Below, one piece after another: positions 33,923-41,280 of a DNA stretch of 64,000 nucleotides. The position numbers were made by a program, and so were the translations under genes. How positions within the stretch are numbered: the stretch's first letter is position 1; every line of letters begins with the position of its first letter. The notes under the pieces are model-generated. The model was not told the origin of the DNA and searched no databases. It saw only the letters and a program-made list of their open reading frames with translations. Source of the stretch: Candidatus Zixiibacteriota bacterium (GTDB taxonomy: Bacteria > Zixibacteria > MSB-5A5 > WJJR01 > JAJRUJ01); the NCBI GenBank assembly GCA_020051695.1, contig JAGVQM010000021.1, positions 62,001 to 126,000 of the forward strand. Reading direction: 5' to 3'.

Positions 33923-36900
33923 ATGTCCTCTCCCTCTTCAAGGTTAATCCTTGTCGGTTTCCTGCTCTGCCTGGTTCCCGGAGTCTTGTCGGCGTCAATG
34001 ATGTACCCGGAATCGCTTAAACCGGAGGAGAACCGGGCCCTTACCGAGCAAAGCGGCTCGTTTTCCACGTCGTGTGTTGATGTCGATGTCAACAACCAGA
34101 CCCAGATTTCGACGTTTCGGCGCAGCGCTACCGACGCGTTGTATGAAGCGTCGCTGATGATTGGCGTGATAAACGACACCGATACAACTGTCTATCGGGA
34201 CATCTTTCAAGTGAATAAGTATGACGGCATTGACGATATCCATTCCGGCGACGGGATAACCACTTTTGAAATATCATCGAGCGACGCAAGCGTCCTCGGT
34301 CGAGTGACATACTCCTATGACCCGGATGATGCCGATAGTTGTGGATTCATCATCATTTATTACGACATTTACGGCTCCGCCGCCACGCCGCTGACCATTT
34401 TTTCGGGTCTTTGCGCCGATTTCGATCTTGATGACGCGATGTTGAACCAGAGTTCGTACGATGCCGATCGGGATATGGTTTACATGACCTCCGCGAGTTC
34501 GGATCGTGTTTGCGGCATGGCGCTGTTGTCCGGCAGTGCTCATAATTTGCGGGCCATCAATAATCCCACCGAAATCTACGACGGTTTTACCGATGGCGAG
34601 GCCTATAGCCACCTGGCCGCCACTGACAATACTGACGGAACCACCGGCGATGACTGGTCGATTCTGCTGAGTTTTGGCCAGGGCGTTATCAGCCAGGACG
34701 ATACCGTGCACTTTCAGGTGGCCTTGATGTACTCCATTTCAACGGTAACCGAATTGAACGAGATCCACGATCAGGCCGTGGCCTGGGCCGCGGGGCATGA
34801 TCCGTTCGGCAACCCGCTTGTCACGATCGAGGACCACTCATTTGATGATTCCTTTGGCGATAATAATGGTCGGCCCGACCCCGGAGAAAATAATATCGAG
34901 CTGCTGGTGACGGTTTCCAACCTCGCAGCCACGGCCCTGGGGCTGACCATGCACGCCGCGGCAGATTTCCCGGAAATCGTGTTTTCCAATGATGAATCTT
35001 CGTATGGTGATTTGCTCCCCGCCCAACAGGCCGACAATACCGCCGACCCGATCGTATTTTCAGTCGATGCCGGCTTTCCCCCGACGATCGTCGAGTTCGA
35101 GCTGACCTTCACCGCCAATTCGGGCGCTTATACCCTGATCGAGACGGTCACGGTTAATGTCGGCGACGAAATCCTGATTGTTGATGATGACAACGACCGT
35201 CTTCCGCCGCTGGAATATATGTATTATCAACGTGTGCTTGATTCCCTACGCATCCCCAACCGGGTTTGGCAAAAATCCTCGCTGGGCTCTCCCGACGCCG
35301 ACACCATGGCTGCTACCGCCGCCGTGCTCTGGTTTACCGGGGATACTCGGTTGGAGGTGTTGTCCGCCACCGATGTGAGCAACCTCGGGGCATTCCTTGA
35401 CGGCGGTGGCCGATTGTTCCTCACCGGGCAGGACATCGCCGAGGACCTGGCAGATGACGCCGATTCGACATTCCTGCGCGACTATCTCCATGTGCGTTTC
35501 GCGGCCGGCTCGCCGTTACCGCTGGCTAATGGTGTCGCCGGCGATCCTATTGGTGACGGGCACCAGGTTCCCCTGGGCGGCTCCGGCGGACAAAGCAACC
35601 AGTTGTCTCCCGATATCCTTGTCCCGGCCGACGATCTGGCCAAGCCGGTATATACCTACTACAACTCAACCAATGTTGCAGGCATTCACGCGGCCGACGG
35701 CTACCGTGTTGTTTACTTCGGCTTTGGTTGCGAGGCCATTGCCGATGGTCTGATGATGACGACTCGCGGGGAGGTCTATGTCAGTGTTATCGACTGGCTG
35801 AACCTGGGGGACGACGATCCCGATGGTGACGGCCTGACCAATGCCGTCGACAACTGCCCGAATCATTATAATCTTGATCAATTGGATACCGACCTGGACG
35901 GTGAAGGCGATCCCTGTGATACCGACGACGATAACGACGGCGTGCCTGATCTGTCCGACAATTGCCCGCTCGTTGATAATATCGGACAGGAAAATGCCGA
36001 TACGGACTCCCACGGAGACGTCTGCGATAATTGTCCGCTCACCGATAACGAAGACCAAAACGACGCCGACCAGGACGGCCTCGGGGACCTCTGCGATAAT
36101 TGCCCGACGACCGGCAACCCGGACCAGTTCGACGGCGATGGTGATAACGTGGGCGATGCGTGCGATAACTGCCCGACGACTCCGAACAGCGGCCAGGCAA
36201 ACGGCGACGGCGACAATGTGGGCGATGCCTGTGACAACTGCCCGACTATTGCCAACCAGACCCAGACCAACAGCGACCTTGACGGCCACGGTGATGCCTG
36301 CGACAATTGTCCCTCAACGACCAACCCCGGACAGGAAGACGGCGACACCGATAATGTCGGAGATGCCTGCGACAACTGCCTGACCGTCGCCAACCAGGAC
36401 CAGGCCAACAGTGACACGGACGGTTTCGGCAATGTCTGTGACAACTGCCCGACTGTCGGTAACCAGGACCAGCTTAACAGCGATAGTGACGCCCTCGGTG
36501 ATGCCTGCGATAATTGTCCCCTGGCCGACAACCAGAACCAGGCCGACGGCGACAACGATGATGTCGGCAATGTCTGCGACAACTGCCTGACGACACCCAA
36601 TACGGACCAGCAAAACAACGACACGGATGCCCTGGGCGATGCCTGTGATAATTGTCCGACCGTTAACAACCCTGACCAGGCCGATGGTGATGCCGATGGT
36701 GTCGGCAACGCCTGCGATAACTGCCCCACCAGGGCCAACGCCAACCAGGCCGATGCCGATGATGATGATGCCGGCGACCTCTGCGATAACTGCCTGACGA
36801 CGTCCAACCCCGCTCAGGAAGATTATGATTATGACCTGGTCGGCGATTCGTGCGACAATTGCATTTTCGTTCCCAACTCCATCCAGGAAGATGAAGACGG

Positions 36901-37393
36901 GGACGGCGTCGGTGATTACTGCGACCAGTGCTGGGGATATGACGATAACCTGGATGCCGACGGCGATGGAGTAGCGGACGGCTGCGATGAATGCCCCGGC
37001 TTCGCCGACAGCGACGACGGCGATGCCGACGGTGTCCCCGACAGCTGTGACAATTGCCCGGAGGCATATAATCCCGGGCAGGAGGACGAAGACCAGAATG
37101 ATATCGGCGATGCCTGCCAGTGTGACTGCAGTGAACACTGCAATATGGACGGTGTGGGAGGTTTCACGCCGGTGGACGTGGCGTACATTGTGAAATTCGT
37201 CTACAAACAGCAGGACGCGCGGCCGGTGCTGCCCAATTGTCCGGCCGGTAACGGCGATTGGGATTGCAACGGTATGGTCACGCCCCTGGATGTCACCTGG
37301 TATGTGCAATATGTCTATAAGTCATCCGGCATCGGCCCTTGCGATCCATGCAATTGTGCGCCATATCCGGGCAACTGCCCGACATTTCCGTAA
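33923..37393 (+). CDS. Large secreted protein with about 18 thrombospondin type 3 repeats and dockerin-like C-terminus
   Basis: The 1156-residue protein begins with a signal peptide (RLILVGFLLCLVPGVLSA). Residues about 30-420 are a beta-rich region of unknown family; about 415-625 resemble a class-I-glutaminase-like (Rossmann) domain with the LFLTGQDIAEDL segment. From about 630 to 1060 come roughly 18 calcium-binding TSP3 repeats, most of the 23-residue form DNCPTTGNPDQFDGDGDNV-GDAC. The end is a dockerin-like module (CDCSEHCNMDGVGG ... CDPC) with two EF-hand repeats, FTPVDVAYIVKFVYK and VTPLDVTWYVQYVYK. Such proteins are typically surface-displayed, stiff, calcium-dependent stalks. ATG 33923 follows AAAGGGGA. 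Confidence 0.9.
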   Translation: MSSPSSRLILVGFLLCLVPGVLSASMMYPESLKPEENRALTEQSGSFSTSCVDVDVNNQTQISTFRRSATDALYEASLMIGVINDTDTTVYRDIFQVNKYDGIDDIHSGDGITTFEISSSDASVLGRVTYSYDPDDADSCGFIIIYYDIYGSAATPLTIFSGLCADFDLDDAMLNQSSYDADRDMVYMTSASSDRVCGMALLSGSAHNLRAINNPTEIYDGFTDGEAYSHLAATDNTDGTTGDDWSILLSFGQGVISQDDTVHFQVALMYSISTVTELNEIHDQAVAWAAGHDPFGNPLVTIEDHSFDDSFGDNNGRPDPGENNIELLVTVSNLAATALGLTMHAAADFPEIVFSNDESSYGDLLPAQQADNTADPIVFSVDAGFPPTIVEFELTFTANSGAYTLIETVTVNVGDEILIVDDDNDRLPPLEYMYYQRVLDSLRIPNRVWQKSSLGSPDADTMAATAAVLWFTGDTRLEVLSATDVSNLGAFLDGGGRLFLTGQDIAEDLADDADSTFLRDYLHVRFAAGSPLPLANGVAGDPIGDGHQVPLGGSGGQSNQLSPDILVPADDLAKPVYTYYNSTNVAGIHAADGYRVVYFGFGCEAIADGLMMTTRGEVYVSVIDWLNLGDDDPDGDGLTNAVDNCPNHYNLDQLDTDLDGEGDPCDTDDDNDGVPDLSDNCPLVDNIGQENADTDSHGDVCDNCPLTDNEDQNDADQDGLGDLCDNCPTTGNPDQFDGDGDNVGDACDNCPTTPNSGQANGDGDNVGDACDNCPTIANQTQTNSDLDGHGDACDNCPSTTNPGQEDGDTDNVGDACDNCLTVANQDQANSDTDGFGNVCDNCPTVGNQDQLNSDSDALGDACDNCPLADNQNQADGDNDDVGNVCDNCLTTPNTDQQNNDTDALGDACDNCPTVNNPDQADGDADGVGNACDNCPTRANANQADADDDDAGDLCDNCLTTSNPAQEDYDYDLVGDSCDNCIFVPNSIQEDEDGDGVGDYCDQCWGYDDNLDADGDGVADGCDECPGFADSDDGDADGVPDSCDNCPEAYNPGQEDEDQNDIGDACQCDCSEHCNMDGVGGFTPVDVAYIVKFVYKQQDARPVLPNCPAGNGDWDCNGMVTPLDVTWYVQYVYKSSGIGPCDPCNCAPYPGNCPTFP
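35811..37110 (+). repeat. 69-base tandem repeats encoding TSP3 units
   Basis: About 18 in-frame units inside the coding sequence, many close to 69 bases, share the core encoding GDACDNCP. Neighbouring units are similar but not identical at DNA level, which argues for ageing duplications rather than recent expansion. Confidence 0.85.
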
Positions 37394-37701: not shown

Positions 37702-37737
37702 AAAAAAACAAACCCACCGAGCAATTCGCTCGGTGGG
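37702..37737 (-). terminator. Intrinsic terminator after the cysteine-hexad gene
   Basis: On the minus strand CCCACCGAGC and GCTCGGTGGG form a ten-base perfect stem with a five-base loop, followed by a TTTGTTTTTTT run. It is about 30 bases past the stop codon at 37768. Confidence 0.8.
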
Positions 37738-37767
37738 TGGAATGGTTCGCGGCAATAACGCTGCCGA

Positions 37768-39249
37768 TTACCGCTCAATAATACTGCACATATCGCACGG
37801 GACGTTGAGAGGATTCCGGAACAGGTAATCGACGATCCGGACAACGTCAATCAAATTGATAATGCCGTCACAATTGATATCCCCACTGTTGATCACCGGA
37901 CAATCGGGATCGATAACCGGCGCAGGACCGTCACGGAAAACATAGTTGATCAGGTATACGGCATCACCCACGTCTACCGTGCCGCTGCCGTTGCAATCGC
38001 CATGGTTTGAACAATCGCACGGTTCACCACAGGTGTTGGCCCCCTGACACGTCGCCTCACCCGGACAGGTCGCCATCCCGAGGCAGGTTACCTCGCCGGG
38101 GCAGGTCGCCACGCCCGGACATGTCGGTTGCCCTAGGCACGTCGCCTGACCATCACACGTCGGAGAATTCGGACAGGTTTCCATCCCGGGACAGGTCGGG
38201 CAGCGGGCACAGGTGGCTTCGGTTAGACAGGTGATCCCGCAAGTGGTCATGCCTTCACACGTTTCGGACCCCGGGCACGTCGCTTGATCACCGCAGGACG
38301 GTGTCTGCGGACAGGTCGGCATGCCGGGACAGGTAGCACAACGGGCGCAGGTGGCTTCGGTCAGACAGGTGATCCCGCAGGTGGTCATGCCTTCACACGT
38401 TTCAGACCCCGGGCAGGTGGCCAGACCAACGCAAGTCGGAGTGTTCGGACAAGTTTCCATGCCGGGGCAGGTCGGGCAACGGGCGCAGGTGGCTTCGGTC
38501 AGACAGGTGATCCCACAGGTGGTCATGCCCTCGCAGGTTTCCTCACCGGGACAAGTCGGCATTCCCGGACAAGTCTGGGTGCCCTTACACGTAGTGTAGC
38601 CGGGACAAGTCGGCGTTCCGGGGCAGGTTCCCGCGCCGGCACATGTCGGATACCCATTACAGGTTATGTCGCATGTGCCGGCTGTCTGACAGGTAATTGT
38701 ACCCGGGCAGGTCGGGTAACCCTCACAGGTGACTTCACATGTCGGCATCCCCGTACAAGTCTCTGTACCACATGTCGGGGCCGTGCCGCAGGTGGCCGCT
38801 CCGGGGCACGTGGCCAGGGAGGCGCAGGTTTCCATCCCCGGACAGGTCATCTCACCCGGGCAGGTCGTATAGCCGATACACGTCGGCAACCCCGGGCAGG
38901 TCGGCATCCCCGGACAAGTCGGTGACTGATCGCAGGTCACCTCGCAGGTGGGTTCTCCGGCCATGGTCGGCGTGAATTGCGCCAGCACGGGTGACTCAAC
39001 GGGCATTTCTTTCGGCAAGTCGATGGGGATTTCCGCGACTGCTGCGGCAGGTGATTCTGCCGGTAGAGCATCAACTCCCGCGTCTTTGGTCCGGAAATCG
39101 TTCAGACTCCCCTGCAATGATTGTTCATACAGTGGGGAGATTTCCGGAGTGTCTGCCGCTGCTGCAGCGGCCCACAACAAACAGGCGATCAGGGCAAGTA
39201 CGCGGACGGTACCTGTGGAATGGTGTAGAAAACCACGAACAAAACTCAT
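37768..39249 (-). CDS. Secreted protein with about 54 cysteine hexads (TCPGxx) and dockerin-like C-terminus
   Basis: From ATG 39249 the protein is 493 residues. A signal peptide (VRVLALIACLLWAAAAAA) is followed by a 70-residue linker rich in Pro, Glu and Ala. Residues about 100-411 are an extraordinary array in which TC recurs every six residues, most often as TCPGMP or TCPGxx, with occasional four-residue steps (EVTC, GITC, DITC). Three copies of a 46-residue super-repeat occupy 237-374. The end (411-488) is a dockerin-like module bounded by CDC and CDMC, with EF-hand repeats GTVDVGDAVYLINYV and GIINLIDVVRIVDYL. The six-residue period would let all cysteines line one face of a left-handed beta-helix. 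No known family is recognised. Confidence 0.85.
   Translation of the reverse strand: MSFVRGFLHHSTGTVRVLALIACLLWAAAAAADTPEISPLYEQSLQGSLNDFRTKDAGVDALPAESPAAAVAEIPIDLPKEMPVESPVLAQFTPTMAGEPTCEVTCDQSPTCPGMPTCPGLPTCIGYTTCPGEMTCPGMETCASLATCPGAATCGTAPTCGTETCTGMPTCEVTCEGYPTCPGTITCQTAGTCDITCNGYPTCAGAGTCPGTPTCPGYTTCKGTQTCPGMPTCPGEETCEGMTTCGITCLTEATCARCPTCPGMETCPNTPTCVGLATCPGSETCEGMTTCGITCLTEATCARCATCPGMPTCPQTPSCGDQATCPGSETCEGMTTCGITCLTEATCARCPTCPGMETCPNSPTCDGQATCLGQPTCPGVATCPGEVTCLGMATCPGEATCQGANTCGEPCDCSNHGDCNGSGTVDVGDAVYLINYVFRDGPAPVIDPDCPVINSGDINCDGIINLIDVVRIVDYLFRNPLNVPCDMCSIIER
38128..38541 (-). repeat. Three tandem 138-base units inside the cysteine-hexad gene
   Basis: Each unit encodes 46 residues starting ETCEGMTTCGITCLTEATC. 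The copies agree over most of their length and differ mainly in the second half (PNTPTCVGLA, PQTPSCGDQA, PNSPTCDGQA), showing fairly recent duplication. Confidence 0.85.
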
Positions 39250-39732
39250 GTAACACCCCCGAGGCAAAATGAACCTTTTCTGCAAATTAACCGGTAATTG
39301 GTTCTTGTCAAGATATTTAGCTCCTGTTCCTTCCATTCCTATATATCGTCAGGTGGGAAGGATTACGCAACCCCAAAGTAGTTTTTCTAAGGCCAACGGG
39401 CGTAGGGACTTTGGCTTACGCTCACGGCGCCGACCGCCCACCCCCGGAGGAATGATTGACAATGCCCGCAGGCCCGTTTTACTTGGACAGGCGCGGCCGG
39501 CAGACCGGCTTGGCGCGGGAGGCGCGGATTGAGTAACCCACCGAGCGCTTCGCTTCTGTGGGATACCCGATGCTCCAGCGTCAGAAAATGATACCACAGT
39601 CGACATCTTCCGTATTATTTCGGGAGAAAAAGTTTATATTCGCCGAGGACTCGATATCGGGATCGGGCGTGATTGATAAGATGTAAGAATGCGAACTTAG
39701 ATAGGGAAATCGACGAAGTGCGGAAACAACCC
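39250..39732. other. Gap before the restriction-modification genes
   Basis: No gene is supported. It contains a partial relative of repeat family D near 39533-39570 (CCCACCGAGCGCTTCGCTTCTGTGGG). The base composition turns AT-rich after about 39600, marking the start of the restriction-modification island. Confidence 0.5.
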
Positions 39733-40656
39733 ATGATATTCAATAAATTCAAACCTGAGGCGTCGATTGTCCTTCATCACGGCGATTGTTTGGATTTCCT
39801 ACGCGATATACCGGATCGACGTATCCAATTAGTCGTGACATCCCCGCCGTACAACATCGGTAAAGAATATGAAAAAAAGCTTAAGCTTGAAACATATTTG
39901 GATCAGCAAGCGGAAATCATCCGTGAATGTGTTCGCTGTTTATCATTAAATGGGAGTATATGCTGGCAAGTGGGAAATTACGTGTCACGAGGCAGCATTG
40001 TGCCGCTCGACACAGTGCTATATCCCATTTTCATCAAAGCGGGATTGAAGCTTCGTAATCGTATCGTCTGGCACTTTGAGCATGGGTTGCATTGTACGAA
40101 CCGGTTTTCAGGCCGCTATGAGACAATTAATTGGTTCACGAAGTCCGACAATTACGTCTTCGATTTAGATCCTGTTCGAATCCCACAAAAATACCCGGGG
40201 AAGAAGTATTTCAAAGGCCCAAAAGCGGGAAAATACTCCTGCAACCCCAGGGGAAAGAATCCCAGTGATGTCTGGGATATCCCGAACGTGAAAAATAATC
40301 ATGTTGAAAAAACCGAACACCCATGTCAATTCCCGGTTGAATTGATCGAGCGATTGGTATTGTCCATGACGAAAACAAGCGATTGGGTGCTGGATCCTTT
40401 CGTGGGTACCGGCACAACTATTATCGCAGCAATTCGTCACGGCAGAAAGGCCGCTGGTGCAGAAATCTTGGATCGCTATATGAAGATCTCACGTGATAGA
40501 ATAGAAAAAGAGCATGCGGGCCTCCTGAAAACTCGCCCCATGGATAAACCGGTTTTTGACCCGCACCTCGCCGGCAAACAACTTACAACGAGCCCCTGGA
40601 AGAATTCAATGTGCGACCGGCAAGCGACACTTTTCCGAGAAACGGGACGCACTTGA
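39733..40656 (+). CDS. Type II DNA methyltransferase (beta class, N4-cytosine or N6-adenine)
   Basis: The 307-residue protein has the permuted beta-class order of amino-methyltransferases: catalytic motif IV TSPPYN first (near residue 37), then the target-recognition region with HFEHGLHCTNRFSGRYE, and the SAM-binding motif I DPFVGTGTT (near 219). A serine rather than aspartate at the first catalytic position (TSPPY) favours N4-cytosine methylation, as in the partner of BglII. The start is unclear: ATG 39733 lacks a good ribosome binding site, and the frame is open to TTG 39673. It is AT-rich relative to its surroundings and directly precedes a BglII-like endonuclease gene. Confidence 0.88.
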   Translation: MIFNKFKPEASIVLHHGDCLDFLRDIPDRRIQLVVTSPPYNIGKEYEKKLKLETYLDQQAEIIRECVRCLSLNGSICWQVGNYVSRGSIVPLDTVLYPIFIKAGLKLRNRIVWHFEHGLHCTNRFSGRYETINWFTKSDNYVFDLDPVRIPQKYPGKKYFKGPKAGKYSCNPRGKNPSDVWDIPNVKNNHVEKTEHPCQFPVELIERLVLSMTKTSDWVLDPFVGTGTTIIAAIRHGRKAAGAEILDRYMKISRDRIEKEHAGLLKTRPMDKPVFDPHLAGKQLTTSPWKNSMCDRQATLFRETGRT

Positions 40657-40668
40657 TGGTTTCCCTAC

Positions 40669-41280
40669 ATGAAAATTTGTGAAAAATATTCGCATCTCAA
40701 CGGCCTTGAATACCTGCTGGTCCACAAGCCCGATTTGTGGGAGGAAGTATGCAAGGTAATTGAGTGCGTTGATGCCGTGAAGTGCCGCACGAAGATATCA
40801 AAAGAAAAAAATATGAAAGGCAAGTTGCTCTACAGCCCAATTGACATGAATGCCAATTTCAAAAGGCTCCTTAAGAAGAAAAACTGGCATGAAAGTCGTG
40901 TAAGTTATTGGGTCACAAAGAACGAAAAACTCATCAGGAAAACGATGTCCCTTTCACCCAAGGAACAAAAGAGTCAGATAGAACAGTCTGGAGAAAAGCC
41001 GATTTTTAGTTATAATCAGACGGATTTTGTCAAATCCAGGGTTGCTATTGAAGTCCAATTTGGGAAATACTCATTCGTGGCGTACGACCTGTTTGTGAAG
41101 CATCTTGCGTTCTATGTTGGAGATCAAATTGATGTTGGCATCGAAATATTGCCGATGAAATCACTGCAAAGTCAAATGAGCTCAGGCGTGCCTTATTATG
41201 AAGGTGAATTTTATAACGTCGTGCGGCAAGGCCGAGGCGTGCCTGCCGTTCCTTTAATCCTAATCGGGATTGAACCATAA
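40669..41280 (+). CDS. BglII-like type II restriction endonuclease
   Basis: The 203-residue protein carries the BglII active-site arrangement: an aspartate in QTDF, a glutamate nine residues later and a glutamine two further on (AIEVQFG), the same spacing as D84, E93 and Q95 of BglII. The C-terminal PYYEGEFYNVVRQGRGVPA is also typical of the family. It cuts unmethylated target DNA; the recognition site cannot be read from the sequence. It begins 12 bases after the methyltransferase stop on the same strand, forming a compact restriction-modification pair of foreign composition. Confidence 0.82.
   Translation: MKICEKYSHLNGLEYLLVHKPDLWEEVCKVIECVDAVKCRTKISKEKNMKGKLLYSPIDMNANFKRLLKKKNWHESRVSYWVTKNEKLIRKTMSLSPKEQKSQIEQSGEKPIFSYNQTDFVKSRVAIEVQFGKYSFVAYDLFVKHLAFYVGDQIDVGIEILPMKSLQSQMSSGVPYYEGEFYNVVRQGRGVPAVPLILIGIEP

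Follow-up and report, generated by a model that had tools for sequence, protein, structure and literature searches.

A family of cysteine-hexad proteins, putatively displayed at the cell surface, that co-occurs with a pair of membrane proteins in Zixiibacteriota and Clostridia

A gene on the minus strand of the window (the whole 64,000-nucleotide stretch of Candidatus Zixiibacteriota DNA that we analysed) encodes a 493-residue protein whose long cysteine-hexad repeat is conserved in related genomes, in a few Clostridia and in one other bacterium. The proteins share an N-terminal motif, end in interchangeable tails and co-occur with two multi-spanning membrane proteins. On balance, we favor the interpretation that the window gene is one substrate of a conserved surface-display system, with its hexads forming a surface rod.

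The coding sequence of this Cys-hexad surface protein gene, read as an open reading frame (ORF), occupies positions 37768..39249 (minus strand), with its ATG start at 39249 and its stop at 37768. A signal peptide predicted by eye spans approximately residues 1-33 (39151..39249, minus strand; ...AAAAA/DTPE) and has a basic n-region, a hydrophobic core and an Ala-rich cleavage region. Just downstream, at approximately residues 37-53, lies the N-terminal motif PEISPLYEQSLQGSLND (39090..39140, minus strand), in which alignment and an HMM identified the signature SPL[FY]xxSL. The Cys-hexad repeat follows at residues 101-411 (38017..38949, minus strand). Residues 416-476 (37822..38004, minus strand) match the Pfam dockerin type I duplicated motif (Dockerin_1, PF00404) with 27.2 bits against a cut-off of 22.9 (E 4.6e-6), and together with the signal peptide this agrees with an initial annotation that described an exported protein with a dockerin-like tail. 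About 60 sites in the genome of the window (G000) match this tail, suggesting that it may serve surface attachment or sorting generally instead of belonging to a cellulosome. A strong hairpin resembling an intrinsic terminator lies 3' of the stop (37712..37738, minus strand).

The window gene stands singly, between a convergent thrombospondin type 3 gene and a restriction-modification pair. The convergent neighbor (33923-37393, plus strand) encodes 1156 residues in which 12 thrombospondin type 3 stretches were scored, ends in a comparable dockerin-like tail, and is another exported Cys-rich protein in a genome that lacks both DsbB and VKOR. On the other side, a DNA methylase followed by a BglII-type restriction endonuclease (39673-41280, plus strand) forms a compact type II restriction-modification pair.

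The protein contains 65 cysteines, 58 of them within residues 101-411, so the pattern reported initially stood while its count of about 54 for the repeat was too low. Thr directly precedes 53 of the 65, in line with the earlier remark that nearly all cysteines follow Thr. Successive cysteines are mainly six residues apart (44 spacings), with seven steps of four and seven of three, which bears out the six-residue spacing with occasional four-residue steps noted before. The repeat holds 46 C-x5-C pairs, compared to a mean of 10.5 and a maximum of 22 in 5000 composition shuffles. Within the window hexads, Thr precedes the next Cys in 95%, Gly occupies C+2 in 73% and Pro occupies C+1 in 48%. Cys, Thr and Gly are each specified by a mixture of codons, with TGT used 27 times and TGC 17 times and with all four ACN and all four GGN codons in use, indicating that the pattern is kept by selection on the protein. 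Part of the repeat is a recent duplication, in which a 138-bp (46-residue) unit is present 2.9 times as three copies (38136..38541, minus strand).

Family members were found in all nine searched genomes of the order, including that of the window, often as several genes in tandem, and in none of 49 genomes from other orders of the same class. The genome of the window carries a second copy of 1096 residues with 133 cysteines, and single proteins of the family reach approximately 230. A total of 2149 hexads from 26 ORFs gave the consensus T-C-[P/A]-G-x-x (C-[P/A]-G-x-[A/P]-T when read from Cys); Cys follows Thr or Ser in 98% of them, Gly fills C+2 in 68% and Thr fills C+1 in 5%. The number of hexads differs widely among paralogues, and the six-residue period was kept across about 30 homologues, so the conservation test proposed with the initial annotation came out in its favor. 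Tails within the order are mostly dockerin-like; in a genome of the same taxonomic family, one protein (L051) instead carries a C-terminal type IX secretion sorting domain (TIGR04183, above cut-off). In the tandem clusters L049 (G005:C79), L052 (G003:C47) and L057 (G004:C19), some members have extra Cys domains, of thrombospondin type 3 or another kind, with T-C hexads giving way to S-C. Contigs of the order in the records include those of Candidatus Zixiibacteriota bacterium Dive96_bin10.176 (L131) and bacterium isolate WY4.bin59 (L102).

Relatives in other phyla were sought using a DNA pattern for three consecutive T-C-x-G hexads, with one genome per species, and the spread outside the phyla reported here is a lower bound. 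The matches listed were mostly chance, simple-repeat or DNA-repeat ORFs; true relatives among them came from Clostridia (L074, L080, L157 and L127) and from an uncultured bacterium (L167/L245), while six weaker Clostridial matches were unrelated repeats without the motif. A common layout unites the proteins of Zixiibacteriota, Clostridia and the other bacterium: a signal peptide, SPL[FY]xxSL, Cys hexads and an interchangeable C-terminal anchor, which across the family is dockerin-like, a type IX sorting domain or SLH. In the Clostridial proteins, the signal peptide is followed by SPLFxASLxNTLREFxEKE, by Cys steps of four and then six, and by SLH domains. In one of them (L239:7591-9477, minus strand), S-C and T-C alternate through most of the hexads that follow the tetrad steps (TCGS). 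The protein at L245:3261-4769 (plus strand) is a diverged relative with an irregular Cys-rich stretch and a different C-terminal half, beside the same two neighbor genes.

Searches of the window protein against Pfam, NCBIfam and PDB sequences matched the dockerin-like tail and left the repeat unmatched, and we found no description of the family in the open-access literature searched. The Cys-hexad family is therefore apparently undescribed, as the initial annotation had supposed for bacterial families of this period and density. One correction applies: cysteines of beetle antifreeze proteins are also six apart (C2, C8; PMC8038014), so a six-residue period alone is not unprecedented. Among the Clostridial proteins, DUF7640 was matched below threshold in two (L127, E 4e-4; L157, E 0.22), and the yeast repeat model DUF963 scored above cut-off in L127, which we judged to be a low-complexity resemblance. 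Viral contigs yielded nothing with a protein pattern, and with the DNA pattern the ORFs checked there contained simple repeats and no family member. The tblastn searches of plasmids and phages gave one weak match each, also judged low-complexity.

The proteins also have their N-terminal motif in common. Across an 18-row alignment of Zixiibacteriota and Clostridial proteins, S-P-L and S-L are invariant, and an HMM built only from Zixiibacteriota N-termini ranked each of the six Clostridial N-termini higher than any shuffled sequence or unrelated decoy. A joint motif profile produced 34 matches in 16 carrier genomes, all 34 on Cys-hexad genes; most fell on ORFs known before, and two unclear cases, in L314 and L315, were inspected individually. 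The only matches in the genome of the window were its two Cys-hexad genes, with the window protein at E 2.4e-14 to a profile that includes its own segment. The uncultured bacterium G062 (L245) carries SPLY and was missed by the profile; it is assigned to the family on the strength of its repeat, the motif seen by eye and the neighbor genes.

Those neighbors are two multi-spanning membrane proteins of 700-1000 residues, each with two GATase-like domains and strongly conserved polar residues. They adjoin the Cys genes of Clostridia and of L245 and match DUF4350, ABC_transp_aux and the IFT52 GIFT domain (E 3e-7), with distant PDB relatives among IFT52 GIFT domains. Both partners were present in eight of nine carriers of the order, the exception (G008) being the most fragmented assembly, and the same query found the pair in none of the 49 non-carriers of the class. 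Because co-occurrence across an order is confounded by common descent, Clostridia provide the stronger test: among 391 genomes, the first partner was detected in four, exactly the four with a Cys protein, for which the chance level is about 1e-9 if genomes are taken as independent. The genes are adjacent in at least three Zixiibacteriota loci (G005:C79, G003:C47 and G006:C101), in four or five Clostridial loci, a handful of Clostridial neighborhoods having been read, and in G062. They lie on different contigs in the Clostridial carrier G061, and in the genome of the window the pair is encoded at G000:C14:212484-216859, approximately 111 kb from the window gene. The co-occurrence suggests that the two proteins may be a dedicated assembly or display pair for Cys-hexad proteins. 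To the GldG equivalog model TIGR03521 the partners scored 14.9 bits, well short of its cut-off of 389.85. Small CcmH-like membrane proteins are encoded directly after the pair in one family of the order (L280:5804-6566, L281:11765-12271 and L285:6425-6934), and could possibly be a thiol-handling partner.

We next consider the fold of the repeat, which the initial annotation took to be a solenoid. With a staggered alignment as input, AlphaFold2 gave no usable model of the repeat of the window protein (pLDDT 30). A further run took 18 hexads from a Clostridial relative and aligned them in register to hexads of Zixiibacteriota and of the window protein; its top model out of five had pLDDT 76 and pTM 0.60, with one three-residue strand (T-C-x) per hexad, and the other four had pLDDT values of 54, 36, 29 and 28. 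The earlier proposal thus gains one model of a relative and none of the window repeat itself, and because four models were poor and AlphaFold2 over-predicts solenoids for repeats (PMC11795689), the evidence that the Cys-hexad repeat may be a solenoid is moderate. A Foldseek search of PDB with the Clostridial model returned no significant match, the first being Tenebrio antifreeze (E 3, TM 0.30/0.36). No left-handed hexapeptide helix was returned, a result that favors a flat two-hexad coil over one of three hexads. A superperiod of 12 or 18 residues was flat in Zixiibacteriota hexads; in L239, alternation of Ser and Thr before Cys over 18 units (P 0.0004) amounts to a 12-residue period, to which duplication contributes, as the period is also present at silent sites.

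We infer that the motif is the target of the membrane pair, that the hexads form a solenoid with joined cysteines, and that the protein is a surface rod. Sec would export the Cys-hexad protein, after which the pair may recognize SPL[FY] and help to extrude, fold or hand over its substrate. The hexads would then wind into a thin, rigid beta-solenoid, each contributing a three-residue strand (T-C-x) and a Gly turn, probably with two hexads per turn. Cysteines would be stacked in rows inside it, most likely cross-linked as a disulfide ladder, and the tail would anchor the rod on the outside of the cell, where it would serve as a stiff coat or as an adhesin fiber. A ladder of this kind is plausible though unproven; by analogy it is the simplest guess. 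We think it unlikely that the system goes as far as an undescribed, cross-phylum one in which a GIFT-domain pair builds Cys-ladder rods without known disulfide-making enzymes, the cysteines being joined or loaded (with cross-links, metal or sulfur) by a novel chemistry. Thioether peptides of the lanthipeptide or radical-SAM type were also considered and set aside, with no such enzyme among the annotated neighbors.

Neither DsbB nor VKOR, the known catalysts of disulfide formation, was found in any of 16 carriers by a search in which control genomes gave matches, which leaves room for metal- or thiol-based alternatives; the initial annotation had named disulfides, metal ions and iron-sulfur sites as possible contents of the solenoid. 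The cysteines might be reduced, or hold metal, Fe-S, haem or persulfide, in which case the surface coat formed by the protein would bind metal or sulfur or be redox-active, and would not be a disulfide rod. Clostridia, which are typically anaerobic, are among the carriers, and the CcmH family, seen beside the pair in several loci of the one family of the order, handles haem-binding cysteines. Against this, metal sites do not usually show C-x5-C spacing with a Thr preceding each Cys, His residues are few, and neither the genome of the window nor its nearest relative has a CcmH-like gene beside the pair. Export of other Cys-rich proteins from the genome of the window, such as the TSP_3 protein, also indicates that thiols may be oxidized without DsbB or VKOR. 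We consider this alternative improbable. The repeat could instead be unfolded, a flexible and possibly glycosylated spacer rich in Thr, Pro and Gly with random Cys cross-links between chains. The low pLDDT of the first AlphaFold2 run, the known tendency of the program to invent solenoids for repeats, the abundance of Pro and Gly and the variable repeat numbers of paralogues would all fit, but a spacer would tolerate drift, whereas strict positions are kept across the 2149 hexads with mixed codons, and a non-identical natural repeat gave a good model. We consider a flexible spacer improbable too, and slightly more so.

Two known folds were weighed in the same way. A six-residue period would suit an LpxA-type left-handed beta-helix with three hexads per turn, where a multiple of six per turn is natural. 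However, the motif [LIV]-[GAED]-x2-[STAV]-x never occurs three times consecutively, even with Cys allowed at the first position, Pfam gave no match of this kind at E up to 1, and Foldseek failed to return this fold from a PDB rich in such structures, making it very improbable. Beetle antifreeze proteins form a flat two-strand coil with C2-C8 disulfides inside, and their repeat TCTxSxNCxxAx likewise places cysteines six apart (PMC8038014); the Tenebrio protein was also the nearest, insignificant, Foldseek match. Yet the Thr-x-Thr ice face is missing, with a single TCT in the window protein and the scarcity of Thr at C+1 across the family, and the inward residue C+3 is often Met, Glu, Gln, Tyr or Phe rather than small. 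A 12-residue repeat as in TmAFP was seen only in the Clostridial L239, where it is partly from duplication, while six-residue spacing is general. Clostridial carriers of dog-oral and termite-gut origin, as understood from isolate names, make freezing pressure unlikely. We therefore rejected a beetle-type ice-binding protein (TmAFP), which we find scarcely credible given the absent TCT face and the insignificant fold match.

The Cys-hexad proteins constitute an unnamed family defined by sequence alone, with a genetic partner that can be tested. If the ladder is true, they would be among the most cysteine-dense bacterial surface fibers, and in carriers that lack DsbB and VKOR the handling of exported thiols becomes directly testable. 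If GIFT-domain pairs assemble these proteins, they would provide a concrete substrate for a widespread and poorly understood domain (GldG, IFT52).

The proposed arrangement resembles PEP-CTERM/exosortase-type sorting, in which one machine serves many tagged substrates, in having one membrane machine per genome and several substrates with a short signature. It differs in that the signature is N-terminal, just past the signal peptide, and in that no sortase-like protease was identified. The pair itself is akin to the GldG/IFT52/DUF4350 group (arCOG01314) through its DUF4350, ABC_transp_aux and IFT52_GIFT matches, but is distinguished by many transmembrane segments, by two such domains in each partner and, in the sets tested, by constant association with a Cys-hexad protein. 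A link between DUF4350 homologues and GldG was drawn by Makarova and colleagues, who predicted a role in secretion or membrane remodeling (PMC5898192). With Tenebrio and Dorcus antifreeze proteins (1EZG/1L1I), the family shares secretion, a Cys every six residues and Thr before Cys. Unlike them, it has no Thr-x-Thr face and instead carries Gly at C+2, a bulky or charged C+3, Thr before both cysteines of the would-be coil, up to some 230 cysteines and bacterial surface anchors.
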